Below are positions 1 to 20,603 of a DNA stretch of 20,951 nt, one piece after another. The stretch comes from a virus: IMG/VR virus record IMGVR_UViG_3300033571_001109, positions 1-20,951 of that record. One strand, 5' to 3'. Made by a program: the position numbers and the translations under genes. Each line of letters opens with the position of its first letter. Positions within the stretch are counted from its first letter, which is position 1. Under the pieces are notes generated by a model that did no database searches, had not been told where the DNA came from, and saw nothing but the letters and a program-made list of their open reading frames with translations.

Positions 1-134
1 GTGAGAGCACTGGTGCCCGTACTCTCATTGTTGGCATTGTTGTCAAATCCTGCTAGGAAAATTACATTTGCCCAGTATGGATCTGAATCAGCGGGATTGG
101 CGTTGGCCAACCCCAAGTTCCTTGAAAATAACAT
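1..134 (-). CDS. Partial LamG/concanavalin-like adhesin, N-terminal end only
   Basis: The first 44 codons of a minus-strand gene that leaves the window at its left edge. The ATG at 134 overlaps the TAA stop of the collagen-like fibre gene by one base (TAATG), and AAAGGA lies about 8 bases upstream, so the two genes are probably translationally coupled. The visible residues include DPYWANVIFLAGFD followed by an Asn-rich stretch. In my experience this DPYW-x-V-xx-L-xx-FD opening is typical of phage proteins whose first domain is a laminin-G/concanavalin A-like jelly roll, which binds glycans. The role would be a further fibre or receptor-binding subunit, which fits its place at the end of the tail-fibre cassette. 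The domain itself lies outside the window, so the assignment rests on the opening motif and context only. Confidence 0.6.
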   Translation of the reverse strand, partial: MLFSRNLGLANANPADSDPYWANVIFLAGFDNNANNESTGTSAL

Positions 135-3100
135 TATGCGAATCCTTTGACTAAACTTGCGTAGTAGTTAGTTCCATCGTAGAATACTGAAATAATATCT
201 GTGGCGCTGGCCGCTGTTGACAAGGTCTTGCTAGCACCAGCAAACAACATTGTGCTGCTTAGTGTTCTACCACCTGTGCCATCTTGCTTCAAGATCAAGG
301 TTGCATTACTACCAGCAGATACATTTCCTAGACTGTTGATTGTGGTTGTTCCAGTTAGAACCATCTTGAACACTGTTCCACTGGTCACATTGATTGTAGG
401 TGTTGCTAGTGCATTACCCATATCATAAACGCTTTCAACAACACCTTTGAAGTTGGTATTAGTGTACAAGAATGCACCACCACTGCCCAAGGTCAATACT
501 AGACTGTCAGTATTGGTATTTTGATTGGTAGTGCGGAAGTTTAGATCAGTTCCTCTTGCACCACTGGTCCAGTTCTGACTTGCACTACTGTTGATAGTTG
601 CACCAGCATACTGTGTGGCAGCACCGAATGTTGTTATACTAACTGCACTTTGTCCGCTGTTACCAGAGAAAGCAATAGAACCTAATATATCAGCACTTAA
701 GGTGGCTGTAGTCAGTGTACTGCCTGCGCCCCAACGGAATGCTCTTAATGATAGCAATGCACCTGTTGAAGTATTGCCCTGAATAAAGATGCTAGGTTGC
801 GAGTTATCACCAGGAGCACCTGTTCCCACACTTTGTCCAATAACTTTTCTATTCCAGTTAGTAGTGGCAATCGTTGCATTGGCATTTGCACTATTATCAT
901 AATTTATTGAAGCATTAACAGTGGTTGCAAAACTTCCAGTTGTCCAGTTACCGAATACTGTTCTCTTACTAGTATCATACCAACCTGTGTTACCTGCAGG
1001 ATAACCTCTTAGTAACCAACTTGTTCCATGTGAACTGGTTGTCCATGCTTCAGCAGCATAGGCTAATATGTGTGAACCACTATTAGCAGCCATGCCCACT
1101 TCAGGACTACCTGCATAGGCATTTCCATCCCAAGCAGCCACAGCAATAGCAGCCAAACCACTACCACTTGTAGGAGTAGCAGGATTTGCAATTGTTCCAG
1201 TTGAACCTATAAATCTAAATGCAATACTGGATTGATTGTAGATTGTCAGTGTGTTTTGGAAACGAACTTCACCCTTGCCGTTAGGAGCAATGTATAAATG
1301 TTCATCTGTGTTTAAAGTAGTAACTGTGTTGACATTGAATACAATATTACCTGTATTGGCTGAGGAACCTGTGGCTCCTTGTAGGCCAGTTGCGCCTGTG
1401 GCACCCTGATTACCTGCAAAGCCTTGATCTCCTTGAACACCTTGTGCGCCTGTTGCACCTTGGGCTCCAGTTGCTCCGATATCGCCATTAGTTCCGTTAG
1501 TACCATTAGTACCGGCTGCGCCAGTAGCACCCTGGGCACCTGTGGCTCCGATATCGCCATTAGTTCCATTTGTTCCAGCAGCGCCGGTTGCTCCAGTATT
1601 ACCTGTAGTTCCTTGGGCACCTGTGGCTCCAATGTTTCCTTGCGTACCTTGTGCTCCAGTAGCACCGATGTCGCCTTGACTACCCTGTGCTCCAGTAGCA
1701 CCAATGTTGCCCTGTGCGCCAGTAGCACCTGTTGCGCCTGTATTTCCGGTAGTTCCCTGGGCACCAGTTGCACCGATATTGCCCTGTGCTCCAGTTGCGC
1801 CCTGTGCTGTGAATAGTTGCCAATCACCGCTAACACCTGGTAGTCCAGTTCCATTACCGCTGATCAATAGCCAAGTGTTGCCACCATAACTTACAATGCT
1901 TCTATTGACTGTATAACTGCCAGTGATACTGTGTGGGCCTTCCCAGATGAAACTTAGTCCAGTGGCACCTTGTAGACCAGTTGCGCCTGTGGCTCCAGCA
2001 TTACCTGTAGTTCCTTGGGCTCCTGTTGCACCAGTATTTCCAGCAGTTCCTGTGGCACCAGTTGATCCCTGATTTCCATTTGTTCCGTTAGTGCCTGCGG
2101 CTCCAGTAGCACCAATGTTGCCTTCTGCTCCCTGTGCTCCTGTGGCGCCAATATTACCCACGGCACCTGTTGCACCTGACTGACCAGTAGCACCTGTTGA
2201 TCCTTGAACACCTCTTGGACCAGTTAGATTGATATTCCAACTAGATTTACTTGATCCACTGGCAACAGTTCCATATACCACCATTGTGGTCCCTGAATAT
2301 GATTGAATTTGTCCATATACAAAGGCCAACTGATCAGCACTTAGAACAAATACCAATGCTCCTACACCAAGACTGTTAGTTCCGGCGGATTTGTTAACTG
2401 TAAATGTATTGCTGGCATTTAGAGTAGGAGTTACAGTTGATGTAGAAGTCAATGTTTCATAGGCAATTCCAGTAGCACCTACTAGTCCAGTTGCTCCTTC
2501 TAATCCTGTTGCACCTGTAGATCCCTGAGCACCAGTAGCACCTTGTGGTCCTGTAGCACCTGTAGATCCCTGTGCTCCAGCATTTGTTTGTAAATTCCAG
2601 TATGAGAATGGCGCACTTGGATTTGAATTATTTGTAACAGGATCTTTATCGGTATTTGCAGCCACACAAATATAATTGTCGCCAGTTGAGTAACGAACAA
2701 TATCATTTACCACATAGGCTGTTAGGTAATCCCAAGCACCTTTCCATGTTAGTCCAACACCTGTTGCACCTTGTTGGCCAGTAGCACCAGTTGATCCGAT
2801 ACCAGTAGCACCTACAGATCCAGCGGGTCCAGTTGCACCCTGTGCACCTGTTGCACCATTAAAGCCTGTGACAACAAATGACCATGAACTGTAAGTTCCA
2901 CTGCCAATAATAGCACCAACTTGCACTGTGATACTGTTTCCACTAAATGCTGTGACAACGCCACCCATACCATAAGCACCACCTGGACTACCTGTAGCAC
3001 GGACATTGACCACATTACCTACTTGAACGCCACTTTGTGTAGCACTTAAATTTGTAGCAAATGTCTTACTGCCTGTGCCAATGGCCACGCTGTCACTAGA

Positions 3101-4768
3101 AGTTAATCCGCCTAGACCTGCTCCAGTTGCACCTGTTGGACCAGTACTACCTTCTGGTCCTGTTGCTCCAGTACTACCTTGAGGACCTGTTGCTCCTGTT
3201 AGACCAGTAGCACCAGTGGCACCTTCTGCACCGCTTAATAGACCCAATATAACGGCATTGTTGTGACTAAAACTTGTGCCCAAATAACTCTTTAAGGTAA
3301 CAGGAAATGCCCAATAACTGGTTGCCGTTCCATCGTTAGTTTCTGTTGGAGTTCCACTAACTGTCCAAACAATTCTTTTTTCTGAACTATCTTTTGATTG
3401 AATAGTAATTTCTTGAGTCTGTTGAATTAGACTTAGATAAAGATCAATGTCTTGACCATCATCATTTAAGTGACTGACATAGAGCACAGTACTGGCAGTA
3501 TTGGTAGCATTGTTAAAATTTAAGTTTCCATTGCCAGGATATGTATTAGAAGTTGAATTGCCAACCTTGTAGTTAAAGATATTATTACTTTGACCCTGTG
3601 GTCCTTGTGGTCCTGTAGATCCAGTTGCACCTGTTAGTCCAGTTGCTCCAGTAGAACCCTGTGCGCCAGTACTACCTTGATTACCAGTTAGACCAGTTGC
3701 ACCTGTGCTACCAATACTTCCATCTGTACCATTTGTTCCGGCAGCACCTGTGGCTCCTGCTGGCCCTGTGGCACCTTGTGGTCCGGTACTTCCCTGTACA
3801 CCAACTGCACCTGCTAGATTGATAGTCCAAGAATTATAAGTTCCAAAACCTACTATTGCATCTGGATTAATGTTTAATTCACCATTGCCGCTGTTATAAC
3901 TGATAACAGTACCTTGTAGTCTTGCACTAGTTGATGTACTGGCTGCAATTACACTTTGTCCAGCAGTGTAGGCCAATCCACCAGCAACTACGAATTGTTT
4001 AGGACCTGTATAATCAATTTGATTTACTGTTGTACTCTGAGTAGAATATCTTTCACCTAGACCAGTTGCACCTGTTGATCCCTGTGGTCCAGTTGCACCT
4101 GTTAGACCTTGTGATCCAGTTGCTCCTTGTGGTCCAGTACTTCCAGTACTACCTTGAACACCTTGTGCTCCAGTACTTCCTTGAATACCTATAACACCTT
4201 GGGCACCTTGTGGTCCAGTAGCACCCATTTCACCAGTAGCACCAGTTGCGCCATTGTTACCTTGTGCGCCCGTACTTCCTTGATTGCCCTGAGCACCTGT
4301 GGCTCCAATTGATCCATTTGATCCGGCAGCACCAGTTGCGCCATTGTTACCTTGTGCGCCCGTACTTCCTTGATTGCCCTGTGTTCCTTGTGCTCCTGTT
4401 GCACCTGCACTACCTGTGGCTCCAGCATTGCCCTGTAAACCAGTAGCACCTTGTGCTCCTGTGGCTCCAGTAGCACCAATGCTACCCTGTGCGCCTGTGG
4501 CACCTGTTGTTCCGGTATTGGCACTTAATACACCAGCGCCTGTGATACTTAATCCACTGCCAACTTTGATACCACCTAGTATACTGGCAGTTGCTGTGGT
4601 TAAGACATAATTGGTTACAGTGGTATTTGCTGTGATAAGAACACCACCAACAGTGACACCATTTCCAACAAATAATTCATTTGTGGTTGTGTCTAAGATC
4701 AATTCACCTACCAATGGTGTAATTGATAATCTATCTGCTGTAGAACCTCTTCTAATCTGTAATGACAT
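134..4768 (-). CDS. Giant collagen-like repeat tail fibre (1544 aa)
   Basis: Residues 1-45 ([13 protein letters not shown] start, then [17 protein letters not shown]) match the common N-terminal module that attaches phage fibres. From about residue 85 to 1130 the protein is mostly Gly-x-y triplets of the GATGAQG/GSTGPQG type, which form trimeric collagen-like helices. Folded inserts interrupt these triplets. Three related beta-domains lie near 236-320, 551-636 and 767-851, each ending in a x-SW-x-(I/F)-x-(L/V)-x-G signature. A different domain lies near 391-514. Two Trp/Tyr-rich modules near 673-729 and 938-988 resemble CBM5/12 carbohydrate-binding modules. The C-terminal ~410 residues are non-collagenous and end in a [21 protein letters not shown] region, a common fibre tip. 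No S74 chaperone-protease motif is evident. Start: AAAGGA 8 bases before ATG. Likely role: side or tip fibre contacting host surface glycans. Several long open frames on both strands inside it are repeat shadows. Confidence 0.85.
1473..1567. repeat. 23-bp direct repeat, 72-bp period, in the collagen region
   Basis: The 23 bases at 1473-1495 recur exactly at 1545-1567, an offset of 72 bp (24 codons). This again keeps the frame and the Gly-x-y register. It is a shorter example of the duplication seen at 4238-4381, and probably reflects slippage or recombination within the fibre gene. Confidence 0.8.
4238..4381. repeat. Perfect 54-bp direct repeat, 90-bp period, in the collagen region
   Basis: Bases 4238-4291 and 4328-4381 are identical over 54 bp. 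The copies are offset by exactly 90 bp (30 codons), so the reading frame is kept. Most other collagen repeats in this gene are similar at protein level but differ at synonymous positions. This pair therefore looks like a recent in-frame duplication. Recombination between the copies would add or remove 30 residues (ten Gly-x-y triplets) from the fibre shaft without a frameshift. Confidence 0.9.
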
Positions 4769-7236: not shown

Positions 7237-7737
7237 TTATCCTACAATGCTAGTATAATTGGTCATTGTTGTGGGATCACCAGCAGTTACGCCAGGTTCC
7301 CATGATTGAATAAAGGCCCAACGATGTGTGTTGACCTGAGGTAATAGATCACCTGTGCTCCATGTAACACCCACAATGGTGATAGGAACATTTTTACGAG
7401 CATCTGGCAATACTGGACCACTGTATAATCCACCTGGGAATGTAATGCCCACAGTACCTGAACTGGCGGAAATTACATTGACATTGGTAGCAGTTGAAAT
7501 TTGTGTTTTAGGGAATACACCTATGACTGTACTGGCTGCAAAGTTTGGCTCACCTGTGTTACGGTCGAAAGCCATTGTGTCAACAACGATGGTCTGTGAG
7601 TCTACATTAAAACGCCAGTCAGTGATATTCTGACCGTAATTGTAAACCATTGTTCTTTGTGTTGAGGGGAAGATCTGTTCGATCTGAATGTTGTCGGCGC
7701 CGCCGATATAATTTGCAAAGTTTAATACTCCAGCCAT
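7237..7737 (-). CDS. Unknown virion-type protein in the fibre cassette (166 aa)
   Basis: I do not recognise a named family. The protein begins MAGVLNFANYIGGADNIQIE, has no signal peptide or membrane segment, and appears beta-rich and acidic-neutral. An aromatic patch (THRWAFIQSWEPG) lies near residues 137-149. The central part reads FDRNTGEPNFAASTVIGVFPKT (about 58-79), which suggests a compact beta domain. It lies between the gpJ-like tip gene with its small satellite and the large fibre gene. A fibre adaptor, baseplate-like connector or attachment protein is therefore plausible, but this is inferred from position alone. CAGGAG lies 7 bases upstream of the ATG and directly follows the folded leader at 7751-7827, so translation of this gene is the most likely target of that element. 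Confidence 0.7.
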   Translation of the reverse strand: MAGVLNFANYIGGADNIQIEQIFPSTQRTMVYNYGQNITDWRFNVDSQTIVVDTMAFDRNTGEPNFAASTVIGVFPKTQISTATNVNVISASSGTVGITFPGGLYSGPVLPDARKNVPITIVGVTWSTGDLLPQVNTHRWAFIQSWEPGVTAGDPTTMTNYTSIVG

Positions 7738-7750
7738 GTGGATTCTCCTG

Positions 7751-7827
7751 AGGGTTAAAACAGACTAGTGCTAAGGCTACTAATCCGGGCTTGGGGACAC
7801 TGTATCCCCGCTGCAATATTTAACCCT
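7751..7827 (-). ncRNA. Candidate structured 5' leader RNA, three-way junction
   Basis: Read on the minus strand, the outer arms 7819-7827 and 7751-7759 form a perfect 9-bp stem (AGGGTTAAA with TTTAACCCT). Inside are two hairpins. The first is 7803-7809 with 7793-7799 (GGGGATA/TGTCCCC, loop CAG). The second is 7779-7785 with 7763-7769 (GATTAGT/ACTAGTC, loop of 9). Each inner hairpin includes one G-U pair that would be a C-A mismatch on the plus strand. This favours a real RNA transcribed in the gene direction. The outer stem ends one base before CAGGAG, the ribosome binding site of the gene starting at 7737. No U-tract follows, so it is not a simple terminator. I know of no family it belongs to; a tRNA is excluded because D-arm and T-loop consensus are absent. 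Confidence 0.45.
7817..7824 (-). promoter_or_regulatory. GTTAAATA motif, copy 1 (possible late promoter element)
   Basis: Octamer GTTAAATA on the minus strand, in context GGGTTAAATATT. It lies in the 116-bp gap upstream of the gene starting at 7737. The same octamer occurs in the other two long gaps (17497-17504 and 20596-20603), with GGTTAAATATT shared between this copy and the 17497 copy. It resembles the T4 late -10 element TATAAATA, but no matching sigma factor is visible here. It also forms part of the 5' arm of the predicted leader stem, so promoter and RNA-stem readings compete. Confidence 0.3.
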
Positions 7828-7853
7828 TGACCCTAATTACGGCTTGATAAGGC

Positions 7854-8120
7854 TTATTCTTTAGGATATTGACTCTTAACTGAATCAAGGTAGGCCATAA
7901 AGGAACCAGTCTTGGCTGGTTCACCAAAGAGTCCCGCCTTGATATCATCATATAGACAGTTTAGTTCTTCTTCAACTTGGTATGCCTGCATTCTTTTAAT
8001 GATTGCAGGCATTTCAGGATCTCCTGGAACAGTGATTAATTGCCCAGGATTTTCAGGATCCCAAGTTGTATAAAAACTTTCATTTATAGTTTGTTGTTGT
8101 TGTTGATTGCTTATTGCCAT
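7854..8120 (-). CDS. Small protein following the gpJ-like gene (88 aa)
   Basis: The open frame extends upstream to 8153, but the start chosen is ATG at 8120. AGGA lies 6 bases before it, and this start leaves the gpJ-like gene (stop at 8132) free of overlap. The protein begins MAISNQQQQQ, has a short Asp/Pro segment (WDPENPGQL), and ends in a likely helical part with EEELNCLYDDIKAGLFG and KTGSFMAYLDSVKSQYP. The pattern of an acidic helix followed by an ...AGLFG-x-x-AKTG-x-F... tail is one I associate with small proteins near phage tail-fibre genes. I cannot name a function. An adaptor or assembly factor for the tip would fit the context. Confidence 0.65.
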   Translation of the reverse strand: MAISNQQQQQTINESFYTTWDPENPGQLITVPGDPEMPAIIKRMQAYQVEEELNCLYDDIKAGLFGEPAKTGSFMAYLDSVKSQYPKE

Positions 8121-8131
8121 ATCTGTTCCTA

Positions 8132-11100
8132 TTAAGCCAGCGTTACGCTCCATACAATATTGCTAAATGCTAGAGTTCCTAATGTACTACCTACACTACC
8201 ATTGCCGTTCATAAATCCACAACCAATAACCATGGTACTACCAACTGTTAAAGTTCCAGAAGATGGCATTGTAAAGGTAGCACTTAACTTAACAGCACCG
8301 TTGTAACTTGTAGAAGATCCAAATGTTCTACCAAATTGTGGATAAATGGTACTACCGTTTGTTAAAGCACCGCTAGGCAATGGCGTTGGATTTACAGGGA
8401 TAAAAATAGTTTTACCACTACCACCATGAGTATTATCATTGCCAAATAGAAAGAATATTGGACCATTTGGATATGCTAAAAATCCAGAGCCTGTTAGTGA
8501 TGCAGTAAAACTAACAATATAGTTGTTTGAACCTGCAATCATTAGTTCAGTAATTGGTATAGTAGTATAGGCTAGCGTTTTCCAATAACCATATACGGAG
8601 GCGGAGTTGCTGTAATATTGATCATAAGTATCTGAGGTTGATACAGTAACAGATTCAGGTGCAAAATTTGTGCCTGCAGGCGCTGGAAGAAGACCTTTGA
8701 CTAGGTTATTATAGTTTACCACACCTGTTTGTAATGCACTACTGGTAATAAGTCCAGCAACATTAAGATTGTTACCAATGCTGACAGTGCCACCAAATCG
8801 TGCATTACCACTTGATCCATCTAGCCAGTACCCGCCACTGTTGTTGTCACCAAATGTAGCACCTGTACTGGCCGACTTGTTAGTGAAAATACTATTGGCT
8901 GCTAGAGCATTTGCTCGAATAGTTCCATCTGCGACTAGGTCACCTGCAATCTTAAATGTTGCGGCAATCCAAGTACCTGAACTATTATAACTTAGACTTT
9001 TACTTATTGTTCCATAATAAAAACTACCACCGTCATTGGTTATGGGATTATAACCAGTGGCTGTTAACCATGCTGCACTTAGTTCTGCATTTGTAGCAGC
9101 ATTAGGGTCTACAGTCATAGGAATATAACTTAATGGCACAAATCCTCGTGGTCCTGGATCACCTGGATCTCCTGGGTCACCTTTGGTTCCATCTGCTGCC
9201 AAACTAATAATTGGCAGTGTAATACTCTTATTAAATCCACCTGCTGTGGCACTTAATACAATTCTATTGCTGGTTGTACTTGGATATACCGTGACAGTAT
9301 CGCCAGGGAATACACTAGTGCTGGTACTTGCAATAGCAGCACCTGTTATTGACCAATCAAACAAAGCAAAACTTATATTGGTAGCAGTTGCTCTAATTGT
9401 AATACTTTGTGGAGTAAATTGATTACTAGTGCTCTTGACAAAAGTAGTTCCTTGGCTGTAATCAAAGTCAATGAAACTTGGACTTACTCCATCAGAACCT
9501 CTAGGACCAAATCCTGCTTCAATTTGAACACCTGTAGACCAAGTAGCGCCATATGAACCAAAGTTTGTAGTTGTATAAACAGGATCTGCCATGGCAGTGT
9601 ATCTATAACTGCCAGTTGTTAGGGCAACAGCATAGTCATAGTTGTCCACATAGGTATATGGAGGAGCACCGTATCTAGTAACTGGCCTTGAATCCCAACC
9701 GAATGTTTCTCTATTATATGTACCACCTGAAATTGTAACAGTGGTTCCATTAATAGGCACATTAAAATAAACTCTAGGCCTATACAGAGTATTACCATTG
9801 ATACCGGGATCAACAATGTAGAATTGTTGTGTTGCGGGTGCTGCTTGAACAATGTTACCGCCACCGTCCTTATATCGAACAGGAACTGTAACAGCGGCTG
9901 TACTGCTGGTAATAAATGTAGGATTGCCTAATTGCACACCATTATCTGTAGTGGTTGATATTGTTGTGGCTGTAAATCCAATACTGCTTGTGGTCAATGC
10001 ACCTGTGCTTAGATAGCCAGTGCTGCTACTGGCACCAATACGCCAACTGTTGTTGACAAATAATGGATCACTGTCACTTGTGGCCAATACAAATGGAACA
10101 ACTGCTCCACCTGCTGTACCATAGGCCTTGGGATTAACCACAGACAAGTTTGTTGTAACTGTGTTGCTGGTAGTACTATTGAATCTAGGAACACCGATAC
10201 TAGGTGGTTGGAATTGAACACCAAATTGTAATCCACTTACACTGCTGACAAATTCTGGTGCCCAAGCAATGCTGGTTGCACTACTAAATGCTGTCTTACG
10301 GCGAATACCTACTCCTCTAACACGGAAATAATAAGTTCCTGTGCTTAGACTTGTAACTAGTTGTGTGCTGGTACTTGATCTTGGGAAAAAACTAGTATTG
10401 GCAGGATAGTCTAAACCATAGAGTTTATATACGCTGTTGCTTTGACTTTCTGTAGTTCCATACCAATATTCCACTGCCTGCACATTGCCTGTACTAGGTA
10501 TTGCTGCTCTAACAGTAAAGTTAGGAATTTGATCTTTGGGATTAATATTGACAATAGTCGGTGCATTTAAATTAGTTAAAATGCCTGGATCGCTAATACC
10601 TGTGTTAGGTTCAGGTATAAAATCTGCTAGATCAATGCTGTCGTCATCATAGACACCATCATTGTATTCACTGGCTGTGATGCGGGCATATAAACTGCCA
10701 TCATCTGCTTTGCCTTCTTGAACTTGTGCAATGCGGAATAGTTTACCATATGGCATTGCCACAGTTTCGCTGTATCTACCCCAACCATACCAATTATGGT
10801 GGATACCAATAACATCACCTGCTTCTAATTGAATGCCACTGTAGTCCATGGTAAAGTTAATGGCCAAGTCTTCACGACTTTGTAACAATCTACGAGCAGC
10901 AATGTATTGTGCTTGAATAACTGTATTTGTATAAGGCAGTGTTAGACTTAACTGATTGTCAGGTTCGTTGGGACTACGCATTAAATTAGGAAATTCTTCT
11001 AAGGTAATGATATGGTAGCCTGCTTGATCTTTGATCCTTGTATTGGGATATTCAACTCGAACACTGTTGTAGGTGCTGTTTAAATCAATAGGATTGATAT

Positions 11101-17065: not shown

Positions 17066-17491
17066 TTACAGAATATAATAGTAATCCCTAGGATAACGCA
17101 CCATTCTCTTACCAATTGATGAGGGATCAATTCCATAATGCTTTGCTGCCGCTAGCCTACTTTCAAAGATTCCATCAGGTGTTTGAATCTTTTTTCCATT
17201 TTTTCCATTACTGCCTGTTGCCCTTCCTTTTTTTGATTTGTCAATCATGTTATCTTGTTGTGTTCCAACAAATAGATGCTTAGGATTAACACAACTAGGA
17301 TTATCACATCGATGACAAACACATTTGTTTTCAATATTATAACCTGCTATTTGAGCACTAAATCTGTGTGCCCCCAAAGTCTTTCCATTAAAACTAAACA
17401 TTCCATGACCAAATTTATTTTTACTTCCTTGCCAAATCCAGCAAGAGGAAGTTTTTTTTACATAAGAATAAAATCTATTAAGTGCATCCAT
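17066..17491 (-). CDS. HNH endonuclease, probable free-standing homing enzyme (141 aa)
   Basis: The N-terminus has the W-x-W pattern CWIWQG (17-22), then GHGMF, AHRFSAQIAG (41-50), and the catalytic zinc-type run CHRCDNPSCVNPKHL (59-73), with DN at 80-81. This is the HNH_3-type ββα-metal fold (Cys/His pairs, H42, H60, N69 and H72 as likely active or metal residues). A second part (TPDGIFESRLAAAKHYGI, from about residue 104) is of the NUMOD/AP2-like DNA-binding type. Such proteins nick or cut DNA at specific sites and often move between phages. It lies directly behind the terminator of the major tail gene and has only a weak ribosome site (AAGG 12 bases upstream). It may be expressed through read-through or the GTTAAATA motif upstream. 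Confidence 0.88.
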   Translation of the reverse strand: MDALNRFYSYVKKTSSCWIWQGSKNKFGHGMFSFNGKTLGAHRFSAQIAGYNIENKCVCHRCDNPSCVNPKHLFVGTQQDNMIDKSKKGRATGSNGKNGKKIQTPDGIFESRLAAAKHYGIDPSSIGKRMVRYPRDYYYIL

Positions 17492-17496
17492 ACAAA

Positions 17497-17504
17497 TATT
17501 TAAC
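17497..17504 (-). promoter_or_regulatory. GTTAAATA motif, copy 2
   Basis: Octamer in GGTTAAATATT, 5 bases before the HNH ATG. As a -10 element it would place the start of RNA inside the HNH gene. It could therefore serve the downstream tail genes (57-aa gene, chaperones) rather than the endonuclease. Shared with the copies at 7817 and 20596. Confidence 0.3.
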
Positions 17505-19886: not shown

Positions 19887-20558
19887 TTAGGCTATACCGT
19901 TTGATTTACGATATTGTGCGTAAATCTTACGGTCTTCTGGGTTAGACATATTCAATTTAGAAATGTCAACCTTATCTTGCTTTTGACCAATATTAGATTT
20001 GCCTGAGGAGGTGGCTGGTGTTGCTGACTTAAAGTGAGGATTAGTGTCAAGGAATTCTTTGACTAAATCATCTACTCTGAAAGGCTGACCCGAATCGTTA
20101 TATCTAACTTTTCCTTCTTTGTCAACGATTTCCACTTGACCATCTTCACCTAGACGAACACTGGGTTTTAACAGTGTGCGAACTTGCTCGGCATTGACTG
20201 CCTTGTAGTTTGCTGCTGCTGTAACCAATGGCACATCCACAGTATATTCTCTAATAATTTGATCACGACGCTGAATTTCAGCATCTTTCTTTGCTGCCAT
20301 ATCTTGTAGAACTTTTTCAAATTCACCACGCTTGACACTTTCTTCTTGCTTACGCTGTTCTGCTTGTTGCTTGAGTGTCTTAAGTTCATCGATATCACCT
20401 AGTTCGGCAAAGGTCTTTTCATATTTTTTAGATATGCTGGCCTTCATCCTTGCCATGTGCTGATCAAATTCCTCTTGTGTGTAAGTTTTGACTGCGGCCT
20501 GATTATTTGTAGTGGACTCATCAGTATTGTCCAGATTGCCTATGTCTTGGTTGCTCAT
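19887..20558 (-). CDS. Capsid scaffold protein (223 aa)
   Basis: Highly charged, coiled-coil protein typical of phage scaffolds. Residues about 28-110 are rich in Glu, Lys, Gln and Arg with a heptad-like order (TQEEFDQHMARMKASISKKY, then a second part near 58-105). Residues 137-165 have a short beta hairpin-like stretch (GQVEIVDKEGKVRYNDSG). The C-terminus has KLNMSNPEDRKIYAQYRK (201-218), a basic helix-loop of the sort that binds the capsid protein. GGGAGG precedes ATG by about 10 bases. The protein would guide procapsid assembly and then leave or be degraded. Confidence 0.85.
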   Translation of the reverse strand: MSNQDIGNLDNTDESTTNNQAAVKTYTQEEFDQHMARMKASISKKYEKTFAELGDIDELKTLKQQAEQRKQEESVKRGEFEKVLQDMAAKKDAEIQRRDQIIREYTVDVPLVTAAANYKAVNAEQVRTLLKPSVRLGEDGQVEIVDKEGKVRYNDSGQPFRVDDLVKEFLDTNPHFKSATPATSSGKSNIGQKQDKVDISKLNMSNPEDRKIYAQYRKSNGIA

Positions 20559-20595: not shown

Positions 20596-20603
20596 TATTT
20601 AAC
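20596..20603 (-). promoter_or_regulatory. GTTAAATA motif, copy 3
   Basis: The octamer lies 38 bases before the scaffold ATG, at a suitable distance for a -10-like element (RNA start near 20588, before the ribosome site). It overlaps one arm of the inverted repeat 20598-20625. See copies at 7817 and 17497. Confidence 0.35.

Follow-up and report, generated by a model that had tools for sequence, protein, structure and literature searches.

Coat operators of MS2-type single-stranded RNA phages are hairpins with an ANYA tetraloop and a bulged A. In two-site repression by CsrA/RsmA, GGA motifs occur in a hairpin loop and at the Shine-Dalgarno (SD) box. Late promoters of phage T4 have the consensus TATAAATA (PMC3014915), and the T4 late sigma factor gp55 contacts the -10 region only (PMC3184105). 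The ribosome site of T4 gene e is hidden in read-through RNA and free in late RNA (PMC3014915).

We compared with these systems the leader of a tail-region gene, gene A, in the window, that is, the whole analysed stretch of 20,951 nucleotides of viral DNA. Like the T4 late promoters (gp55/gp33/gp45), the promoter of this leader has an [N]TAAATA box and no -35 element, and such boxes occur in the sense orientation only, before late structural genes. Unlike them, it belongs to genomes of about 30 kb, with no match to the gp55 profile in 21 records, and is followed by a hairpin, H1, at one gene only. The similarity to T4 gene e, namely a stem close to the ribosome site whose upstream arm includes a late promoter, is restricted to the window; the stem is not conserved across the family and hardly alters SD accessibility. 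With the MS2 operator, H1 shares the short hairpin and the four-base NNYA-type loop near a ribosome site. However, H1 lies upstream of the SD box, is found in tailed DNA phages and has no known coat-like binder, and an MS2-type coat operator was rejected, as the loop is C-CNYA-G and not ANYA. The similarity to CsrA/RsmA consists in one short motif that an upstream hairpin carries in its loop and that recurs at the SD box, at a set spacing. The motif is, however, CCNYAG and not GGA, and CsrA two-site repression was rejected since the H1 loop contains no GGA. The Rfam family freshwater-2 (RF02980) is also cis-regulatory, ends in an A-rich ribosome site followed by ATG, and has a weak match in one related leader (L058). 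It was rejected as well: this match scores 13.5 bits against a cut-off of 49.9 and rests on the AGGAGA-ATG tail, while the best score in 22 records was 24.7 bits, none being above 49.9, and similar scores were scattered elsewhere and in control genomes.

The gene A leader in the window

The leader occupies a gene-free gap of 116 nt between the ORF 7854-8153 and the gene 7237-7737. The relevant features of the window are the following.

7237-7737, minus strand: gene A (166 aa), downstream of the leader, encoding a predicted beta-sandwich tail-region protein
7745-7754, minus strand: CCCUCAGGAG, the SD box, overlapped at 7748-7753 by CCUCAG, which repeats the loop motif
7751-7759, minus strand: 3' arm of the outer stem, AGGGTTAAA, window-specific
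7761-7787, minus strand: conserved hairpin H1, in the window 9+2 bp with one bulged A (from covariation and fold)
7771-7776, minus strand: H1 loop CCUUAG, family consensus C-CNYA-G (from the loop profile)
7793-7809, minus strand: inner 5' hairpin of 7 bp (arms 7793-7799 and 7803-7809), not conserved in sequence, predicted to be 5'-terminal in the late transcript
7811, minus strand: predicted transcription start, placed by the distance between TATAAATA and +1 in T4
7817-7823, minus strand: late-promoter box TTAAATA of the T4 gp55 type; in relatives, this box reads ATAAATA or CTAAATA
7819-7827, minus strand: 5' arm of the outer stem, pairing with 7751-7759 and overlapping the promoter box, probably present in read-through RNA only
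20596-20602, minus strand: second TTAAATA box, 37 nt before the scaffold-like gene 19887-20558, with no H1, at an orthologous place in relatives

A sequence-only reading had described this leader as a three-way junction with a perfect outer stem and two inner hairpins. In the window sequence the fold is there. The 9-bp outer stem is perfect, 7751-7759 (AGGGTTAAA) being the reverse complement of 7819-7827, and both 7-bp hairpins of the minus strand (7763-7769/7779-7785 and 7793-7799/7803-7809) are present, each with one G-U pair whose plus-strand counterpart would be C-A. The stem adjoins CAGGAG directly (7751 versus 7750), and is not separated from it by one base as had been stated. Folding of 7738-7853 (minus strand) against shuffled controls, proposed as a check, gave -36.0 kcal/mol, z = -2.43, with 3 of 200 shuffles equally good. 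The bare junction 7751-7827 (minus strand) has -30.1 kcal/mol and z = -3.83, matched by 0 of 200 shuffles, a value flattered by the fact that the region was picked for its folding. The three-way junction beats chance in the window sequence. As had been supposed, the leader matches no Rfam family: none of the 4227 Rfam families scored above its gathering cut-off in the window and 20 relatives, and an Rfam search of the window leader up to E=10 produced no match.

In T4, transcription starts about 6 nt downstream of a TATAAATA-type box. With the same spacing, we infer that the late transcript of the window would begin near 7811 and lack the 5' arm of the outer stem. As this arm overlaps the TTAAATA box, the outer stem is probably absent from late transcripts. 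The computed accessibility of the SD box is low both with and without the upstream RNA, and thus folding alone gives no switch. The weak hairpin predicted at the SD box in relatives is reduced in the window to two pairs, and RNAfold favours another small hairpin there. The window's own H1 is bulged and is missed by the covariance model of the family.

Promoter and hairpin in related leaders

About 100 related leaders, defined as the DNA before the gene A start codon, were found via the 166-aa protein. They have a common plan: an [N]TAAATA box, a short hairpin, an SD box and ATG. Compensatory changes in these homologous leaders, by which the sequence-only reading had proposed to judge its fold, very strongly support the 3' inner hairpin (7763-7785) and do not support the outer stem. 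One of the three helices is conserved in relatives, 7763-7785, better delimited as 7761-7787. Helices connecting the promoter region with the SD region are no longer than in shuffled sequences in about 70 leaders, except for a 9-bp case in L001, a near-identical relative of the window; the outer stem is identical there and unique to these two. Thus the structured leader RNA on the transcribed strand, at the ribosome site of a tail-region gene and probably near the mRNA 5' end, stood, whereas the three-way junction as a functional unit did not.

Nearly all relatives have the promoter box at this position. ATAAATA was counted in 574 kb from 20 contigs, each oriented by gene A: the coding strand has 89 copies and the non-coding strand 0, a striking avoidance of antisense late promoters. 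No other hexamer is avoided on the non-coding strand as strongly as TAAATA. The sites are intergenic in 71 of 89 cases, with intergenic sequence making up 13% of the total. A logo of 87 sites contains the box only, with no -35 signal. ATAAATA also precedes the scaffold-like gene, a portal-sized gene and others. The window has no ATAAATA on either strand (6.1 expected), its late promoters being of the TTAAATA form. Judged from sequence, the box is a T4-type late promoter signature. Some late leaders of the scaffold gene (G014, G018, G019, G025) also begin with a hairpin, several having AUUA-like loops unlike the CNYA of gene A.

H1 has at least 8 bp and no bulge in most relatives. In 47 distinct hairpins, 96.8% of cells are paired and all eight pairs have changes on both sides; the covariation score is 1.22, against 0.26 for shuffled and at most 0.26 for slid versions. 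A larger set of 89 distinct leaders, in which entry required at least 6 of 8 positions paired without gaps, keeps 97% of the pairs at gene A protein identities down to 29%. For the eight pairs of these leaders, Fitch parsimony on the gene A tree yields about 185 compensatory double changes, an estimate that depends on a single tree and on possible recombination between leader and gene. Sixteen further distinct leaders failed the ungapped test; in several of these, including the window type, the stem is bulged or mismatched or the loop deviates slightly. Within the 89 leaders, G-U pairs on the sense strand number 113 and A-C combinations, which would be G-U on the other strand, number 5. The selected molecule is therefore the sense RNA and not a DNA palindrome. 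On this comparative evidence, H1 is a real RNA structure.

The stem varies freely, and the loop is near-invariant, with the consensus C-CNYA-G; RNAfold predicts a CNYA tetraloop closed by C-G. C1, Y4 and G6 are present in 71/71 loops, C2 in 69/71 and A5 in 67/71, a uniformity that is partly built in, since a loose pattern, C[CT]N[CT][AT][GT], was used to pre-select the candidates. Independent controls on the loop were provided by the covariance model, held-out loci and a pattern scan. A few leaders lack the exact loop. The distance from the loop to GGAG is 20 nt in 42 of 71 leaders and 18-23 nt in all 71 (candidates were GGAG or GGAA starting at least 12 nt after the loop and within 32 nt), whereas the distance from promoter to loop ranges from 12 to 42.

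The loop motif recurs at the SD box. The hexamer formed by the five bases before GGAG and its first G matches C[CT]NYAG in 50 of 70 protein-found leaders, against 4 of 131 other GGAG-bearing genes of the same contigs. It may form a weak mini-hairpin, whose two inner pairs can form in 70/70 and 66/70 leaders and further pairs in about 60%. A pseudoknot between the loop and the SD box was considered and rejected, as no pairwise covariation links loop position 3 with SD position -1, and the four loops with A5 changed to T have no compensating change.

The element is specific to gene A. Matches to the covariance model of H1 lie before gene A, with essentially none in other parts of the contigs and about one copy per contig, and the element was present again in held-out loci outside model building. 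A pattern consisting of the box, the loop and the SD motif, with no requirement for base-pairing, has 59 matches in IMG/VR. Directly before gene A, as identified by a profile HMM, are 55 of these; one contig is cut just past the start codon, and three matches have no gene A. Relatives of gene A in IMG/VR number at least 150. No match was found in Pfam or PHROGs, no relatives among GenBank or cultured phages by DNA or protein search, and none in bacterial or archaeal genome contigs. The predicted fold is a beta-sandwich (pLDDT 84), and structure search yielded weak likeness only, to Ig-like or BppU-type and other tail proteins. By this model, the gene A product resembles a beta-sandwich of tail proteins more than an RNA-binding fold.

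Possible modes of regulation

The hairpin before the tail gene points to an undescribed candidate RNA switch or a putative protein-binding site controlling gene A. A two-site operator fits best, because the loop is fixed and the stem free, the distance to the SD box is fixed, the SD box carries the twin motif, and the element is restricted to a single gene. We put the probability that the 5'-end hairpin and the SD-proximal twin motif form a translational operator on the late mRNA at roughly one in two. In such an operator, the leader would be the 5' untranslated region of a late transcript started just past the T4-type promoter (TAAATA box, no -35), and the RNA would fold H1, with its C-CNYA-G loop, at or near the 5' end. 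About 20 nt past H1 would lie the SD box, overlapped by the second hexamer copy (C-YUYA-G-GAG) and able to form its own weak hairpin of 2-4 bp. An RNA-binding protein would most likely read both similar loops together, H1 being the strong anchor and the SD copy the weak site, which would be locked or released to set the translation of gene A. We infer that the protein would act by repression rather than activation. Against such an operator speak the tail-type fold of gene A, the two-pair SD mini-hairpin and the bulged H1 of the window, the low computed SD accessibility, and the leaders with a deviating loop. Protection of the mRNA by its paired 5' end would be a likely side benefit.

Such protection is also the main rival to the two-site operator: H1 might serve mainly as a stabiliser against 5'-end-dependent decay, its loop being conserved for stability only. 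Predicted late transcripts have 0-3 unpaired 5' nucleotides in 59 of 72 leaders, and in the three leaders with H1 displaced downstream (L001, L002 and L003) some other hairpin occupies the 5' end, starting 1-2 nt from its predicted position. However, 5-11 nucleotides are free at the 5' end in several leaders, and the near-invariant loop, the loop-to-SD spacing, the SD twin motif and the restriction to one gene are left unexplained. As the main function of H1, stabilisation is possible and somewhat doubtful.

Another possibility is that H1 is a translation enhancer or a ribosome standby element in direct contact with the ribosome or S1, with no dedicated protein. This would agree with a loop-to-SD distance that stays within 18-23 nt and with a motif running on into the SD box. 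On the other hand, one would expect a general enhancer to precede further late genes as well, e.g. capsid genes, whereas the model finds H1 essentially before gene A only, and we consider this explanation decidedly unlikely.

For the window phage alone, one may imagine a role similar to that in T4 gene e, where the outer stem hampers the ribosome site in read-through RNA until late transcripts without the arm appear. The window has the geometry for it, a 9-bp stem whose arms lie at the promoter box and immediately beside CAGGAG, and T4 gene e is a precedent (PMC3014915). However, outside the window and its near-identical relative the leaders do not exceed shuffles in this respect, and the arm does not lower the computed SD accessibility (0.39 with it, 0.36 without); such a role seems very improbable. 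It is hardly credible that the inverted repeat, although intergenic and beside a promoter, is a DNA site, such as a regulator or nuclease palindrome, against which the G-U excess on the sense strand (113 versus 5) argues, or a transcription terminator. Intrinsic termination was rejected separately: T runs after the stem are of length at most 3 in 53 of 72 leaders, and terminator prediction calls none at the site.

The phage group

The element occurs in uncultured phages with genomes of about 30 kb; complete relatives, e.g. L083-L084, L089-L090 and L097-L098, carry entire head and tail modules, and no polymerase, sigma factor or conserved replication gene was detected in them. Direct terminal repeats (123, 79, 123, 55 and 55 bases) were observed in several contigs at 27-33 kb, which is consistent with complete small genomes. 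The genes common to 12-14 of 14 compared genomes look structural or packaging-related, as labelled by profile hits for the proteins of the window and G001 together with gene position. The 77 non-structural proteins compared with Pfam and PHROGs include methyltransferases and HNH, ParB-like and glycosyltransferase proteins, and the families listed for them, 25 in the case of PHROGs, comprise no polymerase and no sigma factor. One primase-helicase-like gene is common to two genomes. The gp55 family profile (phrog_234) had no match in 21 records, several of which are possibly fragments. Since neither gp55 nor a conserved replication gene was found, the promoter may depend on a divergent factor or on one supplied by the host or a helper. 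Virophages use the promoters of giant viruses. By analogy, these phages could be helper-dependent and rely for late transcription on the machinery of a T4-like phage infecting the same cell, the hairpin letting a protein of the helper or of the phage itself time the tail gene; we regard this as unlikely.

Several other genes of the group deserve mention. In the window, 134-4768 (minus strand) encodes a 1544-aa collagen-repeat fibre with an N-terminal Mtd_N domain of the major tropism determinant type. An HNH homing-type endonuclease gene lies between structural genes at 17066-17491 (minus strand), with TTAAATA just upstream at 17497-17503. In L177 (946-1473), and also in L205, the leader contains, just past CCTCAGG, an HNH endonuclease gene, antisense at 985-1434. 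Copies of the hairpin element flank this gene on either side and differ in sequence type, as might result from the import of a foreign leader and gene A by homing.

The leader of gene A represents a candidate cis-regulatory RNA of phages that covariation supports very strongly and whose layout of promoter, hairpin and SD twin motif is precise. It belongs to one tail gene only, and the phage group that carries it has no relative in the searched GenBank phage collection. The late promoter raises the question of who supplies a sigma factor to phages that seemingly do not encode one, and the leader may serve as a handle for finding a new RNA-protein pair.
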